Virus record (IMG/VR): IMGVR_UViG_3300037189_002681
Coordinates: 1-25,527 of that record
Source: a virus
DNA: 25,527 bases
Strand: one strand, 5' to 3'
In this document: positions 5,130 to 24,376 of the stretch, piece by piece
How positions within the stretch are numbered: position 1 is the first letter of the stretch
Layout: each line of letters opens with the position of its first letter
The notes under the pieces: generated by a model
What the model saw: the letters and a program-made list of their open reading frames with translations, nothing else
Told to the model about the DNA's origin: nothing
Database searches by the model: none
Program-made: the position numbers and the translations under genes

Positions 5130-5297
5130 ATGATCACTGAAAATAATAGTATATTACCTTCTCATGCAGGTGATAACTATATATTAGCCCCAAACGGTTT
5201 GGGTGCTAAAATGGCTAACCAAAGGGAGAAATTCAAACAGCCTAGTGTGTTTAACGATGGTGGTAGCGACACCTCATCCAGCGTAAAGGAGAATAAA
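5130..5297 (+). other. Open in-frame extension or leader upstream of the cell wall hydrolase
   Basis: ATG at 5130 opens a 56-codon stretch in the same frame as the hydrolase at 5298, with no stop between. It encodes a soluble segment (LAPNGLGAKMANQREKF...) that would sit before the signal peptide and spoil it. It also contains a stem (AGC-CCCAA with TTGGG-T-GCT, about 5187-5208). It may be a separate N-terminally extended isoform, a decayed gene, or simply untranslated leader. Confidence 0.45.
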
Positions 5298-5828
5298 ATG
5301 ATACGCATTATCAAAATAGTATTAAACTGTTTTGTCCTAGTGGCATTAACAGTTACAGCACAATCTGCTGTAGAAAAGAAGTTCGATAGATTGAGAGAGG
5401 CTAGAGAAAATCCAAGCCCAATCACTGCACAATTAAGACAGAAGCAATTAGATTGTCTAGCACGTAATATCTATCACGAAGCAGGCTACGAACCTTTTGA
5501 AGGTAAAGTAGCGGTTGCACAAGTAACCATCAATAGAACCGAAAGCGGACAGTTCCCAAGCGACATCTGCCAAGTAGTATACCAAAAAAATGTTGTATAT
5601 GAAAAAGTTCTATGCCAGTTTAGTTGGTATTGCTCGACAGCAAGCTCACAGAAACCAATGAATGGCCCAGTTTACACAGAGAGTATGGAAGTAGCTAAAA
5701 AAGTACTACTCGAAGGATTTAGGATCCGAGATCTAGATCAGGCATTGTATTATCATGCAGACTATGTAAATCCTAAATGGGGCAAAAAGCCCATTGTTAA
5801 AATTGGCCGACATATCTTTTACAAATAA
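5298..5828 (+). CDS. SleB-type cell wall hydrolase (Hydrolase_2 family)
   Basis: A 176-residue protein starting at ATG 5298, which has an excellent SD (AAAGGAG, 5285-5291) and a signal sequence or signal anchor (MIRIIKIVLNCFVLVALTV, ~1-22). The catalytic domain covers residues ~48-176 and has the family core LARNIYHEAGYEPFEGKVAV with the presumed catalytic Glu61, then NR...FP..IC.V, FSW and a final Tyr/His-rich HADYVNPKW. The family cleaves peptidoglycan (SleB/CwlJ lytic transglycosylase type). Next to it is a three-helix membrane protein, so a lysis function (signal-anchor endolysin with a holin) is plausible, as in related marine myophages. An in-frame ATG at 5130 gives a 232-residue alternative. 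Confidence 0.88.
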   Translation: MIRIIKIVLNCFVLVALTVTAQSAVEKKFDRLREARENPSPITAQLRQKQLDCLARNIYHEAGYEPFEGKVAVAQVTINRTESGQFPSDICQVVYQKNVVYEKVLCQFSWYCSTASSQKPMNGPVYTESMEVAKKVLLEGFRIRDLDQALYYHADYVNPKWGKKPIVKIGRHIFYK

Positions 5829-12868: not shown

Positions 12869-14776
12869 ATGAGCAAAATCATCGGTATCGACTTAGGTAC
12901 AACAAATAGCTGTGTAGCTATCCTAGAAAACGGAAAAGCTAAGGTAATCGAAAACAGCGAAGGTGCTAGAACAACACCGTCAATCATTGCATACACTACA
13001 GACGAGATCCTAGTAGGTGCAACAGCAAAGCGACAAGCAGTCACAAACCCAAAGAATACAATTTATGCGGCAAAGCGTTTAATCGGACGTAAGTTCGAAG
13101 AGCAGGCTGTACAGAAAGATATTGACTTGATGCCTTACAGTATCATCAAGGCAGAAAACGGTGACGCTTGGATCGAAGCAAATGGCGAGAAATTGGCTCC
13201 GCCGCAAGTTTCAGCCGAAGTACTTCGTAAGATGAAAAAGACAGCAGAGGACTATTTGGGTACAACAGTTACTCAAGCAGTTATCACCGTGCCTGCTTAC
13301 TTTAACGACAGTCAACGTCAAGCAACTAAGGATGCAGGACGTATTGCTGGACTCGAAGTACTTCGCATTATCAACGAACCAACTGCGGCTGCTCTAGCCT
13401 ATGGCGTAGATAAAGAAGATAAGAAGGATCGTAAGGTAGCTGTATACGATCTAGGTGGTGGTACATTCGACGTGTCCATTATCGAGATTGCCAATATCGA
13501 TGGCGACAAGCAGATTGAAGTGTTGTCAACTAATGGTGATACATTCCTAGGCGGTGAAGACTTTGACCAAGTTATCATGGACTATCTAGTAGATGAGTTC
13601 AAGAAAGAGTCTGGCATCGACCTTAAGAAGGATCAGTTGGCACTACAACGTCTAAAGGATTCAGCTGAAAAGGCCAAGATTGAATTGTCTAGCGCCGCAC
13701 AGACTGAAGTCAACTTGCCATACATCACAGCAGACGCAAGCGGTCCTAAGCATTTGATCGTCAAGATTACACGTAGCAAGTTTGAACAGATGGTAGATGT
13801 ATTGATCCAGCGTTCAATTGAACCATGTAAGGTTGCTATGAAAGATGCAGGTGTTACTGCCGCTGACATCGACGAAGTTATCCTTGTTGGTGGACAGACA
13901 CGCATGCCTAAGGTACAAGAAGCAGTTGAGAAACTGTTTGGCAAGGCTCCACGTAAGGACGTCAACCCAGACGAAGCAGTTGCCGCAGGCGCCGCAATCC
14001 AAGGTGCTGTTCTAGCAGGCGATAAGACAGACGTTCTGTTGCTAGACGTTACTCCATTGTCATTAGGTATCGAAACAATGGGCGGTATCTTTACCAAGCT
14101 GATCCAGAAGAACACAACTATTCCAACTAAACACACTCAGACATTCAGCACAGCTGAAGACAATCAGCCTGCTGTCACTATTAAGGTAGGACAGGGCGAG
14201 CGTGAACTAATGCAACACAACAAGTTGTTGGGCGAATTTAACCTAGAAGGTATTGCTCCAGCAATGCGTGGTGTTCCCCAGATCGAGGTCACACTAGATC
14301 TTGATGCTAATGGTATCTTGAATGTAAGTGCCAAGGATAAGAATACTGGCAAAGAAAACAAGATTACTATTAAATCTGATTCAGGTCTATCTGAAGCAGA
14401 AATACAACGCATGGTTAAGGAAGCAGAGGAAAATGCCGAAGCTGATAAGAAGCTGAAGGAATTGATCGAAGCTCGTAACAATGCGGAAGGTGCAACACAT
14501 ACTGTGAAGAAAGATTTTGAACAGTACAAAGACAAGCTAACAGAAGACGACAAGACAGCATTTGAAACCGCCCTGGCCGACGTTGACAAATCAGTACTTG
14601 GCGACGATCCAGAAGCTATCCAAAAGTCTGTCCAAACGTTGTTTGAAAAAGCACAACCAATCTTTACTGCTAAACAGACAGCAGAACAAGCTCCTCCAGA
14701 AGCTCCTGCGGCTGAACCAGAGCCTGCTGTAGTAGATGCAGAGTTCACAGAGGTTGACACTAAGGATAAGAAGTAA
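12869..14776 (+). CDS. dnaK: Full-length Hsp70 chaperone DnaK
   Basis: A 635-residue protein that matches bacterial DnaK (638 in E. coli) end to end. The ATPase domain (~1-380) has [10 protein letters not shown], the [17 protein letters not shown] segment, [21 protein letters not shown] and GGQTRMP; the linker [15 protein letters not shown] and substrate-binding domain (~390-500) follow, then the helical lid and a C-terminal EVDTKDKK-type tail. It appears functional, with no gap. It is of proteobacterial type and was probably taken from a host, though codon use is not visibly different. No DnaJ or GrpE is seen nearby, so host co-chaperones would serve. Full-length Hsp70 in a phage is uncommon; possible clients are virion proteins, curli subunits and the phage IscU (LPPVK). 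Confidence 0.97.
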
Positions 14777-15326: not shown

Positions 15327-15629
15327 ATGCCAGGAACCGATATTCAACTAGACGAAAAGATCAAAGTAACCGTATCAGAGCCAAAACGTTGGAAGGTTAT
15401 CTTCCTAAACGATGACGCTACTCCTATGGACTTTGTTGTTGGTATATTAATCGAAATATTCCATCACTCAGACACAACTGCTCGTGACATCATGGTCACA
15501 GTACACGAAAGTGGTAGTGCAATAGCTGGCGTTTACAGTTTTGAAATCGCTGAAGCTAAGGCAGTCGAAGCAACCACAGTAGCTCGAGCAAATGGATTTC
15601 CATTGCAGATCAAATTGGAGGAAGAATGA
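15327..15629 (+). CDS. clpS: ClpS-type N-end rule adaptor
   Basis: A 100-residue protein of usual ClpS length (106 in E. coli). The core WKVIFLNDDATPMDFVVGILIEIFHH matches the ClpS Y.V.L.NDD.TPM..V...L, and the second half AIAGVYSFEIAEAKAVEATTVARANGFPL matches the G...EIAE.K...V...A...G.PL region. ClpS binds N-degrons and directs them to ClpAP; a phage copy could redirect host proteolysis. The segment from clpS to the bilin reductase is coupled by 4- to 8-base overlaps. Phage ClpS is known but uncommon. Confidence 0.93.
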   Translation: MPGTDIQLDEKIKVTVSEPKRWKVIFLNDDATPMDFVVGILIEIFHHSDTTARDIMVTVHESGSAIAGVYSFEIAEAKAVEATTVARANGFPLQIKLEEE

Positions 15630-16180
15630 GCTTACGCGAGTTAACACATGAGGCACATAAAAATGCCGAGAGACAAGAGTTTGTGAAGATCCTGTTTTCG
15701 GGTAAGATCAATCCAAAGCTATATGCAACATTTTTAAAAAACCAACATCCTACTTATGAGATTCTAGAAGTATGTGCTATGCCACATCAGCTTTTACATG
15801 GGCTACCTGATATCCGCCGAGCACCTTCGATCCTAGCAGATTTTGAAGAACTATGGAATGATGAAGAAGACGGCATTCCTAAGATCATGCCTACTACTGA
15901 AAAGTATATTAAACACATACTGAGCATCAAGGATGATCCTAAGAAACTAATGGCACACATCTATGTTCGACACATGGGCGACCTTGCAGGCGGTCAGATG
16001 ATTAGTAAGAAGGTTCCAGGATCCGGACGTATGTATCAATTTGCAGAACCTGATGCACTCAAAGCTGCCATACGGGAACGTATCAGCGATGACATGGCCG
16101 ACGAAGCTAACATCTGTTTTTCGTTTGCTACAGATCTATTTAGAGACATGTTAGAATTAGTAGAATATGTAGATGAGTAA
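15626..16180 (+). CDS. Heme oxygenase (HO-1 family)
   Basis: A 184-residue all-helical protein. The proximal haem ligand is H11 in the EAHKNAE segment (as in HO-1 EVHTQAE), and the distal-helix motif is HMGDLAGGQM (116-125). The length is typical of short bacterial or phage heme oxygenases. It opens haem to biliverdin IX-alpha, iron and CO, with electrons from ferredoxin or a cytochrome reductase. The bilin reductase two genes downstream is the natural next step. It overlaps clpS by 4 bases and the next gene by 8 bases (ATGAGTAA). The released iron might also be useful to the Fe-S genes here, but that is speculative. Confidence 0.95.
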   Translation: MSLRELTHEAHKNAERQEFVKILFSGKINPKLYATFLKNQHPTYEILEVCAMPHQLLHGLPDIRRAPSILADFEELWNDEEDGIPKIMPTTEKYIKHILSIKDDPKKLMAHIYVRHMGDLAGGQMISKKVPGSGRMYQFAEPDALKAAIRERISDDMADEANICFSFATDLFRDMLELVEYVDE

Positions 16181-16811
16181 TCATTTTGAAATCTTTCCAA
16201 CAGTTATAGGAAGGTATGCATATTCTAATAACGATAATTTAAAAAATATAGTACAGCGTATGATGGATACAACAAACGAAGTACGCAGGATTCAAGATGC
16301 TAATCATTACTTCGAGTATACAGGAAGTTTCTTAAATCAGGATGACATGTCAGATTTTAAAAACTTCCTCGAAGAATCCGTCAATGATTATGCAAACAAT
16401 TTATTAAACCTAGACACAGATATGTTTGTGAGTTTGAGTTGGATAAACCAGACTCACAGAAACTGTGTGATGGGTAAACACAATCATGGTAATTCTTATT
16501 TTAGTGGAACATACTATCTAAATTACGATAACGAAATACATCAACCATTGTATTTCTCAAAAGAACTTGAGTTGAATTCACTCAGTCCTTATATGAGTAT
16601 ATACCCTAGGGATTACAACTATCTGAATGCTTCTACATTCAGGGTACATGACATTACAGAAGGAACATTGCTAATATGGCCATCGAACCTAGTTCATGGT
16701 CACGAACCTAACTTAGGTGATAACCGAATCAGCATCTCGATGAATTTTTTACCTAAAAGATTACATAACGGTGTTTATAGTTTTAAGATTAGTAGGATAG
16801 ATAATGAGTAA
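16173..16811 (+). CDS. 2-oxoglutarate/Fe(II)-dependent oxygenase (putative)
   Basis: A 212-residue jelly-roll protein. Iron-binding candidates are H103 and/or H105 (KHNHGNSYFSGTYYL) and H175 or H177 (NLVHGHEPN), with R185 (NRISISMNF) likely to bind the 2-oxoglutarate carboxylate. This is the layout of the 2OG-Fe(II) oxygenase family common in T4-like cyanophages and pelagiphages. The substrate is unknown. Its position between heme oxygenase and bilin reductase, coupled on both sides by ATGAGTAA overlaps, suggests either a role with the tetrapyrrole product or insertion of an independent gene. Neither is proved by sequence. Confidence 0.85.
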   Translation: MSNHFEIFPTVIGRYAYSNNDNLKNIVQRMMDTTNEVRRIQDANHYFEYTGSFLNQDDMSDFKNFLEESVNDYANNLLNLDTDMFVSLSWINQTHRNCVMGKHNHGNSYFSGTYYLNYDNEIHQPLYFSKELELNSLSPYMSIYPRDYNYLNASTFRVHDITEGTLLIWPSNLVHGHEPNLGDNRISISMNFLPKRLHNGVYSFKISRIDNE

Positions 16812-17484
16812 TGCTTGGGAAACATTGATCAAAGTCGAACAGTACTTTGAATCTAAATTTTATGCAACAGGTAGTATTATAGAAGAGCCCGGAATGGATC
16901 GGTTCAATCAACCGGGCTGGGTTAACAAAGTGTGGCAAAGTAGTCGTTATCGTAGGGCACATATCGATGTTGTTGATGCTCGTGAAACAAAAAGTTTATG
17001 GATGATGCATTGCTGTATCTTTCCGTATACACACAACCCTGCACCCATTTTTGGGTTCGACGTTATAGCCGGTAAGAATAAGATCACCGGCTGTTTCTAC
17101 GATTATAGTCCTGCAGGAGATAAGGATCATCCGATGCTAGAATGGTTTGCCAATGAGACTTCTAGTTTGCAATGGAAAAAGACTAGAGCACTTCCAGATT
17201 GGGCCGAACGTATTTTTAGCCAGAATATGATTGCCGCAAGTAATGTACAAACCGAAGAAGAAATAGCTCAAATATATGAGATGGCCAAGCGAGGGGTAGA
17301 TCATTATCTAGATGCTGTTTGGGAAACAAATAATACTGTTGTAGATACAACAGAAGAACAGAACTATTATGCATTTAATCAGAAACAGAATCCGCACACT
17401 CCTAGGGTAATGGCTAGTTTAGGGCTAGACGAAGAGGATGTACGTGTATTCATTCAGGAATGCTTGTTCCCTGATATCAAATAA
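16804..17484 (+). CDS. Ferredoxin-dependent bilin reductase (PcyX/PebS-like)
   Basis: A 226-residue FDBR. Typical motifs are RRAHIDVVDAR...SLWMMHCCIFP (51-74), then NPAPIFGFDVIAG (78-90), with D86 as the conserved catalytic Asp, and GCFYDYSP (96-103). The C-terminal PHTPRVMASLGLDEEDVR...LFPDI matches the family end. It reduces biliverdin IX-alpha, made by the co-encoded heme oxygenase, to a coloured bilin (phycocyanobilin, phycoerythrobilin or similar; the regiospecificity cannot be told). FDBRs named PcyX were described from marine virus metagenomes together with ho1, and this resembles that type more than cyanophage PebS. The role in a non-photosynthetic host is unexplained. Confidence 0.9.
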   Translation: MSNAWETLIKVEQYFESKFYATGSIIEEPGMDRFNQPGWVNKVWQSSRYRRAHIDVVDARETKSLWMMHCCIFPYTHNPAPIFGFDVIAGKNKITGCFYDYSPAGDKDHPMLEWFANETSSLQWKKTRALPDWAERIFSQNMIAASNVQTEEEIAQIYEMAKRGVDHYLDAVWETNNTVVDTTEEQNYYAFNQKQNPHTPRVMASLGLDEEDVRVFIQECLFPDIK

Positions 17485-17491: not shown

Positions 17492-19054
17492 ATGCAATTA
17501 TTAGATCTAGTAGAAAACACCCGTATTTTAAACGAAGCCAGCATCTTTTCTCGTGAAGGAGCATACAGCTACGGGCATAAGGTAAAGTTATCCACATCGG
17601 TTAAGGGAGAAGCTCTATTACGAGCAATACAGAAAGAACTCCCAGAATTCGACCCTACACAAGAATTAACGTGGACTGACCCAGAACATGTAGATATAGA
17701 AAGCATACCTTTAGTTCATATAGGTAAGGGCAAGAACTACAGAGTGTTTACAACACCTGAAGGAGAACAGTTTGCCATCGTTGGTGCAGATAGTAGTATA
17801 GAAACAGGGCTAATACATGCTAACCGTTTTAACAAAGGCGACATCGCAGAAGCCGCACTAGGCGCCGCGATCACAGCAAAACTAATACTACGTAACGGCT
17901 CTTCGATAGGGGATGTTACCGTCGATGATCTACAAGATATACTAAACAGATCATTCAAAACAAACGGATCATCATTAGTAATCAAAGCTAAAGATCAAAA
18001 CAGTAAGATAAGTGATAAGATTGTATTCAGTCTAAGATTACCAGCTGGAAGCCAGGAAGCATTGGAAAAGGTAGAAAACTGGAAACAGTTTGAAAATATC
18101 TTTGCATCAGCGGTACACTATGCTAACAGTCCAGATGCTGAACGTTATAGCAATTATTTTTATAAGAACGGCAAAGTAGATGAAGTTCGCATCATCAGCG
18201 ACGGTGTTACTAGCCAGAAAGGCACAAAGACAGACGTTAAGGCGTTGGTAACTACTACTGATCCAGAAACAGGTGAAGTTAAAGAACGCACACTCAAGAA
18301 CGTAGATATCAGTTTAAAAGCCGACAGTGTTAAGTATGGACAGAGTACTTCAGGCGGACTACTGGGCGGTCCTGAGACTTGGTTGGCTTCTGCCAAGAGG
18401 ACGTTTGAACCCTTGGGCATTACACTAGACATGCCTGCAAGAGGCAAGAATGACATACTTAAATTTTTTACAGCTATCTATAAACAGGTAGTAGAAAAAT
18501 TAAACACCGAATTAGCCAACGCTAGTTTTGCTGGTGAAACTATCTTTATAGAAAAGATAGCAGATTTAATAAATTTCCATGGATCAGGCGGCGGAAAGAC
18601 TCTGCGTATTGTAAGTTTCGATAAAGGATCTAGCACTATACACAGCTTCCATGTTGTTAAAGCTAAGTTAAAGGAACGCAATATCGATCTTCGTTGTAAA
18701 CTAAGCATAGGTGCTAGAAGCAATAAACCAACTATACATATCTACGATGCGCACGATCCTACTGGTAAGGGTCTATTGACTAACATTCGTTTCTATCTAA
18801 CAGAGAAGGCATCTACTAACTATTTTGAAAAAGGTCCTCTTCTGCACGAACTTACACGTATAGAAAAGAAACCTGCTGTAGTTACAAAACAAGGTCCAGC
18901 AAAAGCATCTATGACTGCTGTGCCTGCAACACCTAAGCCACAAGCAAACAAACCGGTAGTACCCACAACACCCCAACCATCCAATGTACAAATAGATCAT
19001 CCTAGTTCTCATATTGGAATGGATTCTCCAGAACAACCCGAATATACCAATTAA
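17492..19054 (+). CDS. Large phage protein, possible PD-(D/E)XK nuclease core
   Basis: A 520-residue protein. The N-terminus MQLLDLVENTRILNEASIFSREGAY resembles leaders of several marine T4-like phage proteins. Residues ~108-125 (FNKGDIAEAALGAAI) and then GTKTDVKAL (~245) followed by VDISLKA (~270) give the D-(n)-xxSLK pattern of PD-(D/E)XK endonucleases and a GDIAE helix seen in many of them; assignment is tentative. The C-terminal ~60 residues are Pro/Thr/Ala/Lys-rich and probably disordered. It has no SD; its ATG is 7 bases after the previous stop (17482-17484), so re-initiation or leaderless translation is needed. A hairpin (17487-17493 with 17505-17511) covers the start. Confidence 0.7.
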   Translation: MQLLDLVENTRILNEASIFSREGAYSYGHKVKLSTSVKGEALLRAIQKELPEFDPTQELTWTDPEHVDIESIPLVHIGKGKNYRVFTTPEGEQFAIVGADSSIETGLIHANRFNKGDIAEAALGAAITAKLILRNGSSIGDVTVDDLQDILNRSFKTNGSSLVIKAKDQNSKISDKIVFSLRLPAGSQEALEKVENWKQFENIFASAVHYANSPDAERYSNYFYKNGKVDEVRIISDGVTSQKGTKTDVKALVTTTDPETGEVKERTLKNVDISLKADSVKYGQSTSGGLLGGPETWLASAKRTFEPLGITLDMPARGKNDILKFFTAIYKQVVEKLNTELANASFAGETIFIEKIADLINFHGSGGGKTLRIVSFDKGSSTIHSFHVVKAKLKERNIDLRCKLSIGARSNKPTIHIYDAHDPTGKGLLTNIRFYLTEKASTNYFEKGPLLHELTRIEKKPAVVTKQGPAKASMTAVPATPKPQANKPVVPTTPQPSNVQIDHPSSHIGMDSPEQPEYTN

Positions 19055-19084
19055 ACTAGCATTTAATAATACGCTAGTTTAATT
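19049..19084 (+). terminator. Perfect 12-bp inverted repeat after the 17492 gene
   Basis: AATTAAACTAGC (19049-19060) pairs with GCTAGTTTAATT (19073-19084) around a 12-base loop, and includes the stop codon. The right arm has a U-rich end (UUUAAUUCU), so it can serve as a terminator. It precedes the curli module. Its inverted core CTAGC-GTATTATT-...-GCTAG recurs at 6211-6230. Confidence 0.6.
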
Positions 19085-19134: not shown

Positions 19135-19584
19135 ATGGTGAAAAAGTTAATATTCTGCTTGTTAATCTGCCCGGCAATAGCAATGGCAGCACCTCTCCAA
19201 GACTATCAATTTAAGAGCCCAAGCTTCAATGGCAGTGGATATAGCAGTCATGTGCTTACTATAGAAAATCAAGAATTTACACGTAGGGCGCAGTTACAAA
19301 AAGATATTCAAGCGGCATTAGACAAAGCAAAAGCAGATGCATCTAATACCAACATAGCCAAGTTCATGAACAACTTGGAGTCACGTATATACGCACAGAT
19401 TAGCCAAAATTTAGCTACTGCTATGTTTGCTAATGGTGGCACAAATTCAGGCACACTAAATTTTGAAGGTAATACTATATTCTGGACTAAGGATAGTTCT
19501 AGCGTTACCTTACAAGTTACAGACAGTGTCGGCAATCAGACTACTGTAGTTGTCCCATTAGGACAATTCCAGTTTGGAAACTAA
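19135..19584 (+). CDS. csgF: CsgF-like curli assembly factor
   Basis: A 149-residue protein with a Sec signal peptide (MVKKLIFCLLICPAIAMA, cleavage near AMA-APL). The mature N-terminus LQDYQFKSPSFNGSG matches CsgF, whose start (F.F.NP.FGG) inserts into the CsgG pore. The C-terminal region (TNSGTLNFEGNTIFWTKDSSSVTLQVTD) keeps the beta-rich end. CsgF sits at the outer membrane face and helps the nucleator attach. SD GGGAG (19124-19128). It is 1 base before CsgG, the same pair as in bacterial curli operons. No CsgE, CsgC or CsgD is seen. Confidence 0.92.
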   Translation: MVKKLIFCLLICPAIAMAAPLQDYQFKSPSFNGSGYSSHVLTIENQEFTRRAQLQKDIQAALDKAKADASNTNIAKFMNNLESRIYAQISQNLATAMFANGGTNSGTLNFEGNTIFWTKDSSSVTLQVTDSVGNQTTVVVPLGQFQFGN

Positions 19585-19585
19585 T

Positions 19586-20863
19586 ATGAAGAATGTATTA
19601 CTACCGACATTAATTGCTTTAAGCCTTGCTGGGTGTGCGTCAATCCAGAGTACCGGATTGACTGAGACTAAACCAGAAGTAACTAAAGTTATGATGCAGA
19701 AGGAGTTTGATACTATACCTCCTCCATCCAGTAACAAGCCAGTTAGTGTAGCAGTATACAGTTTTATGGACAAGACAGGACAGCGCAGGCCGCAAGCTAA
19801 TGTGGCAAGTTTAAGTACTGCGGTTACTCAAGGTGCAGAAGCATTCCTTATCAAAGCATTGCAGGATGTAGGTAAAGGTACATGGTTCGATGTTGTAGAG
19901 CGTGTTGGTATCGACAACCTGACCAAGGAGCGTACAATCATACGCCAGATGCGCGAAGCATATGAAGGTGCTAATGCAAAACCTTTGATGCCTATGCAGT
20001 TTGCTGGATTGATTATGGAAGGTGGAATAGTAGGCTACGATACTAGCACGACTAGCGGCGGCGCTGGCGCAAGAATATTTGGAATAGGATCACAGACACA
20101 ATGGAGCACTGATACAGTTACGGTGAGTCTACGTGCAGTCAGTGTAAACACAGGTAAAGTCTTGGCAAGTGTTACTGTACAGAAAACTATAATGAGTACA
20201 GCAGACAGTGCCACAGCATTGAAATTCTTTGATGCTGGTACGAAGAGTTTTGAAGCAGAAGCAGGCTTAACTATCAATGAGCCAGGTACTTATGCTGTTA
20301 AATCAGCAGTAGAAATGGCAGTGGTAGAATTAATCAAAGAAGGCGCAAAGAAAGGCATATGGGATTTTAAGTACCCTATGGTTGAAGCTAAGAGATACTT
20401 GTTGGGCGGCGGAGGTTTTGAACCCGAGCCTAAGAAAGTAGAAGCTCCTGTAGAAGTTAAACAAGAGGAGAAGAAAGATGTCGTGGTTCAATCACAAACC
20501 CCCGAAACACCCGCCCCAACCCCCGCACCTGACACCGCACCACAACAGTCCAGCGACAGTGAAGATACTAAAAGAGACGAAGGAAAGGGTGAGGCCAGCA
20601 AGGCAGAAGAAAAAATAGTAAAACCAGCGGCAAAAGCAGAAGTAAAACCAATAGCACCAAGGCCGCTGTTTGGACAACGTAAATTAAAAGAAGATGCATA
20701 CTTGTTTACAGAAGCTGACACGGCAAGTACTAAGAAATGGCTCTTCAAGAAAGGCACAGAAGTTAAAGTTGTACAGCCAGGGAGTGAAGGTTGGCTGAGA
20801 GTCGTAGACGGCGAAAACAAAGGCGGATGGATTCGCACAGAGGTATTAGAGCAGTTAAAATAA
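19586..20863 (+). CDS. csgG: CsgG curli secretion channel with C-terminal SH3 domain
   Basis: A 425-residue protein starting at ATG 19586; a TTG at 19574 is rejected because the lipoprotein signal peptide begins at 19586. The lipobox LAGC has Cys17, so the protein is an outer membrane lipoprotein. Residues ~17-270 match CsgG (VAVYSFMDKTGQRRP, SLSTAVTQGAEAFLIKAL, FDVVERVGIDNLTKERTIIRQMREAY). E. coli CsgG stops at 277 residues; here an E/K/P-rich linker (~275-355) leads to a bacterial SH3-like domain (~360-425), ending WLRVVDGENKGGWIRTEVLEQL. The pore exports curlin subunits; the SH3 part would lie in the periplasm, where such domains often bind peptidoglycan (inference). Confidence 0.92.
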   Translation: MKNVLLPTLIALSLAGCASIQSTGLTETKPEVTKVMMQKEFDTIPPPSSNKPVSVAVYSFMDKTGQRRPQANVASLSTAVTQGAEAFLIKALQDVGKGTWFDVVERVGIDNLTKERTIIRQMREAYEGANAKPLMPMQFAGLIMEGGIVGYDTSTTSGGAGARIFGIGSQTQWSTDTVTVSLRAVSVNTGKVLASVTVQKTIMSTADSATALKFFDAGTKSFEAEAGLTINEPGTYAVKSAVEMAVVELIKEGAKKGIWDFKYPMVEAKRYLLGGGGFEPEPKKVEAPVEVKQEEKKDVVVQSQTPETPAPTPAPDTAPQQSSDSEDTKRDEGKGEASKAEEKIVKPAAKAEVKPIAPRPLFGQRKLKEDAYLFTEADTASTKKWLFKKGTEVKVVQPGSEGWLRVVDGENKGGWIRTEVLEQLK

Positions 20864-20884
20864 AGTAGTACAATAACAATTAAC

Positions 20885-20926
20885 GGGGCCCAGCCCCAAG
20901 GAGCGTATTGCCTTAAGAAAGCAATA
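20885..20926 (+). promoter_or_regulatory. Two stem-loops flanking the SD of the first curlin gene
   Basis: GGGGC (20885-20889) pairs with GCCCC (20893-20897). The SD AAGGAG (20898-20903) follows. Then TATTGC (20906-20911) pairs with GCAATA (20921-20926). The SD is 33 bases from the ATG at 20937, but the second stem-loop would bring it to an effective ~12. T4 genes 25 and 38 use hairpins of this type. Confidence 0.5.
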
Positions 20927-20936
20927 TTGGAATCAT

Positions 20937-21839
20937 ATGGAACAGAGCATCAAAGGCGATGGTAAGTTGTCGAGAAAATTACTTACAATACTGATTTCAA
21001 CTGCAATGTTGACATCGGGAGGCTTTGCTATGGCCGCGGACAATAGCATATTCATCGATCAAGCAGGTGATAATAACCAAATAGTAGTAAATCAGAAAGG
21101 TAGCGGCAACGCTATTGGCGGCACTAACGGGATACCTAGTGCTAGCAACAGAGCAGGAATTAATGGTACTAGCAACGGTGTAGTGATCGATCAAGTGGGT
21201 ACAAGCAACAAGCTGGCACTCAGTTTTAATAACGATGACGGTGGCCCTAGCTCAGGAAGGACTATGACATTTCCAGCTAATCCTTATACTGGTGTTGTAG
21301 GTAGCACTTCGGCACCATTAAGTTTCTTGTATCAGATAGAAGGTTCTAACAACGCAGGCACGATTAACGTAGGAAATCCTAATTCAAAATTAACTAATAC
21401 ACAAGTGCAAGTTAATGGCAATGGTAGCAACAACGCTATCGGTATCAATGTACAAACTGGTAACGATAATACTGTGATTGCTACACTAGGCAGTGGGTTT
21501 GGATCTGGTACTAGTGGCGCTGTAGACAACAGTAATATCACTTCAGTAGTTAATGGTACTGGCAACACTACCGGTATCAATCTAACAGCAAATTCTAACA
21601 CAGTAAGTACACAGCAAACAGGCGATTATAACAGTATTAGTATTGCCGCATCAGGAGTTAGTAATACGTTCAATGTAGCACAGGACAGCACTGCTGTAAC
21701 TGGACATACATTCGCGGCTAACGTAACTGGGTCTGGCAATGATATTGGTGTTGTACAGGCAGGAATAGCAAATAGCACTATTAACGTGAATGTTGCAGGT
21801 AGCAACAACACATTAAGATTAAACAGTAATAAGCCTTAA
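20937..21839 (+). CDS. Curlin-repeat protein 1
   Basis: A 300-residue exported protein. The signal peptide is about residues 12-34 (LLTILISTAMLTSGGFAMA). The mature protein has curlin-like repeats of about 20-25 residues of the form xxxxQxGxxNxxxxxQxG: IFIDQAGDNNQIVVNQKGSGNA, GVVIDQVGTSNKLAL, and more degenerate ones with GSNNA, GNDNT, GTGNTT and TGDYNSI. The Asn/Gln/Gly/Ser ladder with alternating Ile/Val is the amyloid core of CsgA/CsgB. No cysteines. It follows CsgG and is the probable secreted fibre subunit or nucleator; which of the two cannot be told. Confidence 0.9.
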   Translation: MEQSIKGDGKLSRKLLTILISTAMLTSGGFAMAADNSIFIDQAGDNNQIVVNQKGSGNAIGGTNGIPSASNRAGINGTSNGVVIDQVGTSNKLALSFNNDDGGPSSGRTMTFPANPYTGVVGSTSAPLSFLYQIEGSNNAGTINVGNPNSKLTNTQVQVNGNGSNNAIGINVQTGNDNTVIATLGSGFGSGTSGAVDNSNITSVVNGTGNTTGINLTANSNTVSTQQTGDYNSISIAASGVSNTFNVAQDSTAVTGHTFAANVTGSGNDIGVVQAGIANSTINVNVAGSNNTLRLNSNKP

Positions 21840-21840
21840 T

Positions 21841-22629
21841 ATGTTAAAACGCATCATAGCATCACTACTATGTATTGGTGCTGTTGAAGCTTATGCGGCA
21901 GATAACAGCACCTACATAGACCAATCGGGCGATAACGCAACAGTGTTAATCGTACAGGATGGTGCCGGTAATCGAGTTCGGGGATTACCAGGCAGTGGAA
22001 CTAGTGATGAAACCCCGGCTATAATGTATGGAGATAGTAACCAGATAACTATCAGCCAAGTGGGTTCAGGCAACACGATGAAATTTGGTGCTCAGACAAA
22101 ATTGCCATCGGAATTAGACATTGCTGGATACAGTGGTAATATCTTTTACTACAACGTAAAAGGTAATAGTAATAATGCCGTCATAGATAGCAATGGCAAT
22201 GGCAAAGATATCAGCAAAGGCAACAGCATCATACTAACACAGACCGGTAATGGCAACAACGCTGAAGTTAAGATGACGGGTACTGCTAATAATCTAACAG
22301 CTACTACCAGCGGCGGTAACTCTAACGGAGTTATTTCGTTAACCGCAGGAGATAGAAATTTACAGCAAATCACAGTATCTAGCGGTAGTAATAATACAGT
22401 TAACATATCCCAAACAGGAAACAATAACTCAGTAATAGGAACAGCAGTAGGTTCTGGAAACAATGTAAACATGTCTCAAGACGGTTTTGGACACACTGCT
22501 ACATTTGATATCATAGGAAATTCTAATACCGTGAAGACTTCACAGCTGGGTATTGGAGATGTTACACCTTTGAACATAGTTATGAAGGGCAGTAACAACG
22601 TCATAGTTGTAGCCAACGGAGGCAAATAA
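21841..22629 (+). CDS. Curlin-repeat protein 2
   Basis: A 262-residue exported protein with signal peptide MLKRIIASLLCIGAVEAYA (cleavage ~20). The first repeat STYIDQSGDNATVLIVQDGAGN and later ones (NSIILTQTGNGNNAEVKMTG, NNTVNISQTGNNNSVIGTAVG, NNVNMSQDGFGHTATFDIIG, NSNTVKTSQLGIG) give a regular Q-G-N ladder, like curlin 1 but more regular, at residues ~130-255. It starts 2 bases after the curlin 1 stop, with no good SD, so it depends on coupling. It overlaps the FecR-domain gene by 1 base (TAATG). Confidence 0.9.
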   Translation: MLKRIIASLLCIGAVEAYAADNSTYIDQSGDNATVLIVQDGAGNRVRGLPGSGTSDETPAIMYGDSNQITISQVGSGNTMKFGAQTKLPSELDIAGYSGNIFYYNVKGNSNNAVIDSNGNGKDISKGNSIILTQTGNGNNAEVKMTGTANNLTATTSGGNSNGVISLTAGDRNLQQITVSSGSNNTVNISQTGNNNSVIGTAVGSGNNVNMSQDGFGHTATFDIIGNSNTVKTSQLGIGDVTPLNIVMKGSNNVIVVANGGK

Positions 22630-23768
22630 TGAGAAGTCTAGCAGTTTGCCTTATAATACTATGCTCACCTGCCTATGCAGAAATTGGATCTGTGACAGAA
22701 CAGCTAAATTCCGTTCCCGTGATACAGAGACAAAATCAAACACTACAAGCTCCTACCGGAACTAAAGTTGAGATGATGGATGCTGTTCGCACTACACAGG
22801 GTAAGATTGGTATTACGTTCGAAGATAAGAGCCGTGTGCAGGTTAACGAAAACAGTAAACTTGTCATCGATGATTTTGTGTACAGTCCTAAAAACAAAGC
22901 AGGTCAAGCGGCAATGAAAGTAGCATATGGTACTGTTAGATTCGCTAGCGGAGATATAGCACATAACAATAAAGACAAAGTGGCTATCAATACACCTAGT
23001 GCTAGTATCAGTGTGCGCGGCACAGATTTTACAGCAACAGTAGATGAAACTGGAGCCAGCACTGTAGTTCTGTTACCCACTTGTCCAGGCTGGCGCGGCA
23101 GCAGAACTGCTACGGATATCGAACCCGATTGTACAGTAGGTGCTATTACAGTATCCAATGATGCAGGGTCTGTAGTATTGAATAAACCATTCCAAGCTAC
23201 TAGGGTTGAAAATAGAAGCGTACAGCCTAGTCCTCCTGTGATATTAAAACTTAGCGAATTTGCCATGAACAACATGTTAATTGTTGCTCCTCCTAGAGAA
23301 TTAGAAGCCAAACAAGATGACAATCGTAAGGAGATGAAAGGCATATTAGATGTTAACTTCTTGAAAGAAACAGGACTGGCTAATGCTCTGGATGCAGAAC
23401 AAAAAGACATGTTCGTTGACAAGTTGAGCCGTAATTTCCTAGATCAAGATTTTCTAGCCAATGTTCTAGATATCATTAATGCGCAGATGGCCGCGCAGGT
23501 TAATTTGCTGAACAGCACTAAATCAGGGCTGTTACCCGATTACAATGCTGTTACAGGAGTAGTAGCTGAAGTTGACGATACATCTGTTACACTGAGTCGT
23601 AGTGATGGTAGCAATAGACAAAGCATTACTACTCCTAAAAATCAAAACTCAACTCTAGTTCAGACGCAAGGAAGTATCGAAGTTAAAAACCGTGTAAATA
23701 ATGGTGGCGGTACAACTATCACAGTAGTACAAGACAATTCGGCAATAGTGACGGCTCCAAGAAAATGA
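22629..23768 (+). CDS. FecR-domain secreted protein in the curli operon
   Basis: A 379-residue protein with signal peptide (MRSLAVCLIILCSPAYA). Residues ~20-140 match the FecR beta-domain: VGSVTEQLNSV...GTKVEMMDAVRTTQGKIGITFEDKSRVQVNENSKLVIDDFVY, then AAMKVAYGTVRFASGDI and VAINTPSASISVRGTDF. Two cysteines (~150, ~168) and a helical region (~225-300), then a Thr/Ser/Asn-rich end (~305-379) follow. In the host, FecR domains sense or bind at the cell surface. Lying between curlins 2 and 3, it could anchor the fibre to the cell or chaperone subunits. It overlaps curlin 3 by 4 bases (ATGA). No cognate ECF sigma is seen. Confidence 0.85.
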   Translation: MRSLAVCLIILCSPAYAEIGSVTEQLNSVPVIQRQNQTLQAPTGTKVEMMDAVRTTQGKIGITFEDKSRVQVNENSKLVIDDFVYSPKNKAGQAAMKVAYGTVRFASGDIAHNNKDKVAINTPSASISVRGTDFTATVDETGASTVVLLPTCPGWRGSRTATDIEPDCTVGAITVSNDAGSVVLNKPFQATRVENRSVQPSPPVILKLSEFAMNNMLIVAPPRELEAKQDDNRKEMKGILDVNFLKETGLANALDAEQKDMFVDKLSRNFLDQDFLANVLDIINAQMAAQVNLLNSTKSGLLPDYNAVTGVVAEVDDTSVTLSRSDGSNRQSITTPKNQNSTLVQTQGSIEVKNRVNNGGGTTITVVQDNSAIVTAPRK

Positions 23769-24376
23769 AACTAATAGCAATATTCCTAATGATCATATCA
23801 CTAGCTGGGCTTAGATGCACTGATGTAAAAGCCCAATCTACTAGCGATAATACCATTTACATAGATCAAGTAGGAAGCAACAATTCTATCTCCATAGACC
23901 AAACAGGTAACGGACATTCTGCTACAGTTAGCCTGGGCAATAATAATGGTAGCAGTAATGTAGATTACACTACTATAGCTATAATACAACAAGGTGCTCC
24001 TAAGACTGCTAGTGTAGAAATTAAAGCAGGCAGTAACAATTCTGTAAGCATACAACAAGATGGTTCAGGTAATCATACTGCGGCTATTCAAAATCTAAAT
24101 GGTAGCGGTAATCAATTCAACATAACACAAAGTGGTAATGGTAAACATGAATTTACAGTAACTAATACTGCGGGCAGTACCAACGATGCTAATGTATTAA
24201 ACGCACAACAGACTGGCGGAGTTGGTGCTGAAAAAACATTTAATGTTTGGTTGAATGGTGCAACTGGAGCTAATATTTCTGTACAACAAACTAATCCCAC
24301 AACTGCCAGCCAAGGCAGTATGAGCATACAGTGTATGCCAGGCACATGTGGTAATTGGTCTTATATCCGTAATTAA
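23765..24376 (+). CDS. Curlin-repeat protein 3
   Basis: A 203-residue exported protein (signal peptide ~1-24, MKLIAIFLMIISLAGLRC...VKAQ; the LAGLRC does not form a clear lipobox). Curlin repeats: NTIYIDQVGSNNSISIDQTGNGHSA, SNVDYTTIAIIQQGAPKTASVEI, NSVSIQQDGSGNHTAAIQNL, and NQFNITQSGNGKHEFTVTN. The last ~50 residues are less regular and contain two cysteines (CMPGTC) near the C-terminus, which is unlike typical curlins; they may cap the fibre or form a surface loop. It ends the translationally coupled curlin2-FecR-curlin3 run. Confidence 0.9.
   Translation: MKLIAIFLMIISLAGLRCTDVKAQSTSDNTIYIDQVGSNNSISIDQTGNGHSATVSLGNNNGSSNVDYTTIAIIQQGAPKTASVEIKAGSNNSVSIQQDGSGNHTAAIQNLNGSGNQFNITQSGNGKHEFTVTNTAGSTNDANVLNAQQTGGVGAEKTFNVWLNGATGANISVQQTNPTTASQGSMSIQCMPGTCGNWSYIRN

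Follow-up and report, generated by a model that had tools for sequence, protein, structure and literature searches.

Phage-borne curli modules are discussed in three publications, and the occurrence of such a module on a phage is therefore not new as such. Zaragoza-Solas et al. (2020) described a curli cluster in pelagimyophages, for which they suggested "sibling capture" as the function (PMC7029224), Wittmers et al. (2022) described CsgA/B-type repeats, FecR, cyclase and histidine kinase in podo- and myophages (PMC9599517), and Buchholz et al. (2022) stated that phage Melnitz is without csgA and csgB and suggested a role as pinholin or secretin (PMC9004378). Here we analyze a curli-type operon on the IMG/VR virus record IMGVR_UViG_3300037189_002681; the whole 25.5-kb stretch of this record (25,527 nt) is referred to as the window.

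A tblastn search with the window CsgG matched 12 of 50,697 phage records. The best matches were Pelagibacter phage HTVC008M (NC_020484) and Methylophilales phage Melnitz (MZ577097), and the remaining ones were distant Brevundimonas phages and a Salmonella phage whose short record is unannotated. FecR matches in the same collection were limited to the Melnitz and HTVC008M records. Both phages carry csgF-csgG-curlin-fecR-curlin-adenylate cyclase. In the HTVC008M record, fecR and the second curlin are annotated as hypothetical, and the Melnitz record annotates curlin-repeat proteins on either side of fecR. The pelagiphage precedent mentioned in an initial annotation of the window, made from its sequence alone, is thus real. 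The window shares the order csgF-csgG-curlin-fecR-curlin with the type VIII secretion system modules of pelagimyophages, HTVC023P-type phages and Melnitz, and its CsgG belongs to the same clade. Its FecR protein is 37-40% identical to those of HTVC008M and Melnitz over 86-97% of the length. Unlike these modules, it has an extra curlin and an SH3-like tail on CsgG, and curlin 3 is followed directly by the start of an autotransporter-type adhesin gene where those phages have a CHASE2 cyclase. The new elements described here are the SH3-tailed CsgG, a modular-adhesin form of curlin B (the curlin after fecR), a probably secreted FecR with a link to CHASE2, and the adhesin open reading frame (ORF).

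Six neighbouring genes, all on the + strand, occupy positions 19135-24376 in the order csgF, csgG, curlin, curlin, fecR, curlin:

19135-19584, + strand: csgF, predicted secreted protein; PF10614 (CsgF) 53.4 bits, curated cut-off 25.8
19586-20863, + strand: csgG; PF03783 (CsgG) 168.7 bits, curated cut-off 20.8
20937-21839, + strand: curlin 1, 300 aa, signal peptide; PF07012 (Curlin_rpt) 26.2 bits, cut-off 20.7
21841-22629, + strand: curlin 2, 262 aa, signal peptide; PF07012 60.3 bits in 5 stretches, cut-off 20.7
22629-23768, + strand: fecR, predicted secreted FecR-domain protein; PF04773 (FecR) 47.8 bits, cut-off 24
23765-24376, + strand: curlin 3 ("curlin B"); PF07012 45.9 bits, cut-off 20.7

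These ORFs lie where the initial annotation had placed them, and profile searches with CsgF, CsgG, Curlin_rpt (three genes) and FecR each gave a score above the Pfam cut-off. Judged by these scores, the domain-family matches are far beyond chance, and Pfam supports what had been proposed as a pore, a pore adaptor and several fibre subunits on a phage as a type VIII (curli) set. For csgG, the ATG at 19586 yields a normal lipoprotein signal, and the listed TTG at 19574 is an alternative further upstream. The genes had been described as nearly all overlapping; this holds in general, except for a gap of 73 nt between csgG and curlin 1, and the close spacing suggests a single transcription unit. 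Since the G+C content of the operon (41.7%) equals that of the upstream region (41.3%), composition gives no indication of a recent foreign insert. Comparison with relatives revealed strong purifying selection on csgG, fecR and curlin 3, with pN of 0.14-0.29 vs pS of about 0.7-0.8.

Viral relatives were collected by scanning IMG/VR with the window CsgG as the single query sequence, and 80 of 95 relatives were taken. With both reference phages and the window, which is counted two times (under its own name and as L001), they make up 84 loci; some of the 80 contigs are near-identical, so the locus counts given below are not independent. The csgF-csgG-curlin-fecR-curlin order is shared by the IMG/VR relatives, whose contigs reach 353 kb, and by both reference phages. 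The 329- and 353-kb relatives carry T4-type major capsid, portal and terminase genes. T4-type capsid and portal were not detected in nearer relatives such as a 265-kb contig, which has terminase, and the phage type of the window is therefore not settled. In the CsgG tree, the viral sequences group in a single clade (Shimodaira-Hasegawa-like approximate likelihood ratio test, 99), in which the window is sister to contig L022 (96). The clade includes the marine phages, six contigs filed as bacterial, and the bacterial locus L090; the tree was built by a quick method and L090 sits on a long branch, which makes its placement unsure. The six contigs (L084, L085, L086, L087, L089 and L094) carry phage-like curli modules filed under Rhodobacteraceae, Pirellulales, Flavobacteriaceae and Ca. 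Pelagibacter assemblies, and are probably mis-binned phage contigs.

For comparison with bacterial curli systems, a genome scan with the phage CsgG alignment yielded 80 loci, nearly all alphaproteobacterial. The 73 of these that lie outside the viral CsgG clade have csgG and curlins, usually with csgF and with two to five curlins; neither fecR nor a CHASE2 cyclase was found in them. The window resembles the alphaproteobacterial loci (Sphingomonadales and others) in having csgF-csgG followed by several curlins, with CsgG 38-54% identical, and differs from them in its fecR and its CsgG-SH3 fusion. L090 (Hyphomonas sp. TMED17), a 705-kb contig with ordinary bacterial neighbours, is the only clearly bacterial contig with fecR and cyclase, arranged as csgF-csgG-curlin-fecR-CHASE2 cyclase at L090:9459-15482. 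The combination is therefore not strictly viral, contrary to the statement that such genes do not occur inside bacterial curli operons (PMC9599517). The co-occurrence of three curlins and FecR had initially been singled out for comparison. It is not unusual in kind: fecR with two curlins is what this phage family normally has, a third being a minor addition common to the window and L013, and bacterial loci commonly have two to five curlins. Enterobacterial curli (E. coli csgBAC-csgDEFG) share the CsgG family, the N-terminal CsgF motif and the curlin repeats; unlike them, the phage family has longer curlins, a FecR protein and, in relatives of the window, putative adhesive heads, and CsgE was not found in the relatives searched.

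The CsgG family profile matches solved CsgG structures at 3e-71. A lipobox (LAGC in the window) is present at the CsgG N-terminus in 75 of the 84 phage loci. The window protein consists of the pore (residues 1-262), a low-complexity linker and a C-terminal SH3-like domain at about residues 371-421, which the initial annotation did not describe. By itself this tail scores 19.7 bits against SH3_4, under the cut-off of 24.1; tails of relatives match SH3 families down to 1e-8. With a profile built from the phage tails themselves, the SH3-like tail was detected in 52/84 phage loci, including the window, vs 0/80 bacterial-scan loci. Peptidoglycan binding is common among bacterial SH3 domains. Given the known topology of CsgG, the tail should lie in the periplasm, where it probably tethers the pore to peptidoglycan.

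The N-terminus of CsgF in the window reads FKSPSFNG, corresponding to a conserved F-x-(N/S)-P-x-F-x-G motif that is kept in 66 of 68 distinct phage CsgFs and is also found in E. coli CsgF, within its pore-binding N-terminal part. This counts against a proposed loss of CsgF docking to CsgG in phages. CsgF alone gave no match to the PDB with phmmer, though its Pfam profile match is clear. The pore residue equivalent to F56 was considered as a phage peculiarity and ruled out, as it is mostly Leu in phage and bacterial CsgG alike. The lack of CsgE, CsgC and CsgD noted in the initial annotation was supported for CsgE (PF10627), which was not found in the records of 12 relatives, some of them incomplete; CsgC and CsgD were not searched separately. 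Because Alphaproteobacteria generally lack csgC, csgD and csgE (PMC3521004), the missing CsgE is no sign of an incomplete system.

The window curlins carry signal-like N-termini. A profile of curlin 2 relatives matches the curlin-repeat protein PDB 8c50 at 3e-24 and CsgA (8enq) at 2e-5. The AlphaFold2 (AF2) model of curlin 2 is a beta-solenoid with a strand about every 11 residues, a predicted local distance difference test score (pLDDT) of 84.7 and a predicted template modelling score of 0.80, in line with the fibre role first proposed for it. A Foldseek search of the PDB with the curlin model gave no match at E <= 0.001, just general beta-helix proteins, so that the curlin identification rests on the sequence profiles. 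A repeat period of 22 residues was found in curlins 1 and 2 (with an autocorrelation peak at 22 residues in curlin 1) and is irregular in curlin 3.

Curlin 3 is a short, head-less form of the curlin B family. In an alignment of 52 members, which include the window and both reference phages, a C-terminal cysteine pair (C190/C195 in the window) is invariant. Among the relatives, curlin B ranges in length from 186 to 852 aa. An F5/8C head was found in 7/52 members, L078 among them, and a PA14 head in 3/52, including L022; further members bear long unassigned N-terminal regions. HTVC008M gp018 (L003:10561-11886), annotated as hypothetical, is a curlin B with a PA14 domain and curlin repeats; Melnitz curlin B is without a recognised head. 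Domain matches mark the curlin after fecR as a putative modular adhesin in many relatives, with a PA14 or F5/8C head on a curlin tail. An adhesive display subunit would be expected to combine such a constant tail with predicted binding heads that vary.

The FecR protein of the window comprises a signal-type helix (residues 2-10), a FecR beta domain (18-193), a helical linker and a C-terminal beta domain (311-368). In the AF2 model, pLDDT is about 95 over most of the FecR domain, and the helical linker is weakly predicted. The FecR domain is structurally similar to the PupR signalling domain (6ovk; Z 15, root-mean-square deviation 2.8, 136 residues); a search of PDB sequences with the FecR profile gave no significant match, and the C-terminal beta domain has weak Ig-like structural matches alone (Z about 4 or below). 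A structural match to 5ix9, described as a "cell surface anchoring domain" (Z 6.6, 73 residues, 22% identity), raised the idea that the FecR domain is a pore plug or anchor, which is retained as a lead. The fold is shared with FecR/PupR cell-surface signalling regulators, but the anti-sigma hallmarks of these proteins, an N-terminal cytoplasmic segment and one transmembrane helix, are absent from the window FecR, which contains no internal transmembrane stretch. An N-terminal hydrophobic stretch is present in 66 of 70 relatives, and the sole internal transmembrane-like stretch among the 70 is in L046, whose ORF is longer at the start. The phage FecR protein is therefore most likely secreted rather than a FecR-type membrane anti-sigma regulator.

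A CHASE2 cyclase gene lies within 5 kb of the module in 43 of 51 testable phage loci. FecR and CHASE2 genes are also common neighbours in Alphaproteobacteria: in a survey of 142 genomes, 30 of the 82 FecR matches listed have a CHASE2 gene no more than 6 kb away, in 26/46 genomes, which is a rough figure. In a Burkholderia biofilm operon, a FecR-LysM protein adjoins a CHASE2 kinase (PMC5192318). The best reading of these neighbourhoods is that FecR and CHASE2 form a sensor pair, in which the two proteins would interact.

Downstream of curlin 3, and beyond the initial annotation, an ORF begins that is cut by the contig end:

24438 to >25526, + strand: start of adhesin ORF; 81%-identical relative in L022

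The relative in L022 (L022:12474-15212) is a protein of 912 aa that ends in an autotransporter beta-barrel (PF03797, 3.6e-19), which identifies the window ORF as the putative truncated start of an autotransporter-like adhesin. A weaker relative in L013 matches no Pfam family. A search with the ORF matched the already known L022 contig alone; the adhesin is therefore no general part of the module.

We read the operon as a phage-encoded type VIII (curli) secretion system of the kind found in Alphaproteobacteria, which would coat the infected cell with adhesive amyloid-type fibres, and give this reading a probability of about 0.62. The curlins and the FecR protein, with their signal peptides, would be exported via the host Sec pathway. 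CsgG would form the outer-membrane pore, with CsgF docked through its conserved N-terminal peptide and the periplasmic SH3-like tail tying the pore to peptidoglycan. Curlins 1 and 2 would form the fibre, and curlin 3 may be a display or tip subunit, as suggested by the PA14/discoidin-type heads of relatives and the invariant cysteine pair. FecR may have an accessory role in the periplasm, most likely as partner to the CHASE2 adenylate cyclase encoded near the module in most relatives, and couple the state of the envelope or fibre to cyclic AMP (cAMP). The downstream autotransporter-type adhesin would fit the same surface programme; together with the lectin-like heads on relatives' curlins, it lends indirect support to the change of host surface and adhesion initially suggested. 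The phage may benefit through cell-cell capture or through masking against superinfection, two alternatives that are not told apart by sequence. The fibre-coat reading is supported by the finding of Wittmers et al. (2022, PMC9599517) that pelagiphage modules are expressed in metatranscriptomes. More tentatively, it is possible that large phages have a curli variant of their own, with a peptidoglycan-tethered CsgG-SH3 pore, fibres with exchangeable glycan-binding heads and FecR-CHASE2 reporting, which would turn the infected cell into a sticky trap or shield.

Several points weigh against a fibre coat. Cells infected with Melnitz showed no clumping by cytometry or transmission electron microscopy (Buchholz et al., PMC9004378). 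In the window, curlin 3 is without a head, the repeats of curlins 1 and 3 are irregular, and amyloid formation by the curlins cannot be demonstrated from sequence. No cyclase was seen in the window, L022 or L013, the loci with the adhesin ORF, whose contigs end soon after; the window stops 1151 nt past curlin 3, within a different gene. In a promoter scan, promoter-like sites were at chance level (26 found vs 26.7 expected), and the T4-type late promoter octamer was not enriched (34 found vs 47 expected).

The lack of clumping with Melnitz also favours an explanation in which the pore is the point of the module. CsgG/CsgF would then be an outer-membrane uptake channel or, as proposed for Melnitz, take part in the timing of lysis like a pinholin or secretin, with the fibre genes incidental. 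The missing CsgE gate in the 12 records searched would fit this, but csgE is generally missing from alphaproteobacterial curli systems as well. Moreover, the Melnitz paper assumed that there were no fibre subunits, yet the Melnitz record annotates curlin-repeat proteins flanking fecR, and fibre subunits are conserved, with purifying selection acting on them. Pinholins work in the inner membrane, but CsgG is a lipoprotein of the outer membrane, and the window has a separate endolysin gene of the cell-wall hydrolase type (5130-5828, PF07486), apart from the curli operon. We consider this explanation quite unlikely, and the gated pore for lysis suggested at first finds no support.

Signalling as the main role, with the secreted FecR and the CHASE2 cyclase raising cAMP in the infected cell according to the state of the envelope or fibre, and with the fibre serving as sensor input, would account for the frequent cyclase in the phage loci, the FecR-CHASE2 linkage in bacteria (including the Burkholderia operon) and the bacterial operon L090, which combines csgF-csgG-curlin-fecR-cyclase. 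Export and fibre genes are nevertheless the majority of the module, curlin bears variable binding heads and no cyclase is visible in the window, so that signalling appears unlikely to be its main purpose. It is very improbable that the proteins belong to the virion or its tail fibres and not to the host surface. The module does adjoin tail and baseplate genes in HTVC008M and Melnitz, but these structural genes are on the other strand, and the FecR signal, the CsgG lipobox and the signal-like curlin N-termini indicate that the products are exported.

Upstream of csgF, a perfect inverted repeat was read directly from the sequence:

19049-19060 / 19073-19084, no strand: 12-bp perfect inverted repeat

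It overlaps the stop of a 520-aa gene just upstream of csgF and is a candidate terminator or hairpin ahead of the operon; a pattern scan for terminators did not pick it up. Genes for heme oxygenase, 2-oxoglutarate-Fe(II) oxygenase and ferredoxin-dependent bilin reductase lie in a row upstream of the operon (15626-17484), and relatives of the bilin reductase occur in 49/84 loci, typically 1-2 kb ahead of csgF. A full-length Hsp70/DnaK gene is found at 12869-14776 (PF00012, 854 bits); Hsp70/DnaK-like genes are also present in very large uncultured phage records. In one relative (L009:12535-15159), three added genes between curlin B and cyclase read as metallophosphoesterase-like, ATP-grasp-like and glycosyltransferase-like proteins.

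Curli modules occur widely in phages, and marine virologists have yet to settle what they are for. In the published discussion, the fibre genes have been treated as missing (Melnitz) or FecR as an iron regulator. In the relatives analyzed here, the second curlin frequently has the make-up of a modular adhesin, with heads of different types, and FecR appears to belong with a periplasmic sensor cyclase. The module of the window is real and functional-looking, of an already described kind and in a new variant. Its gene identities and order, common descent, purifying selection and added domains are established here, whereas export, fibre formation, peptidoglycan tethering, signalling and the advantage for the phage are inferred. 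The comparison with relatives turns a vague "curli gene cluster" into testable claims on the ligands of the heads, peptidoglycan binding by the SH3 tail and a rise of cAMP in infected cells.

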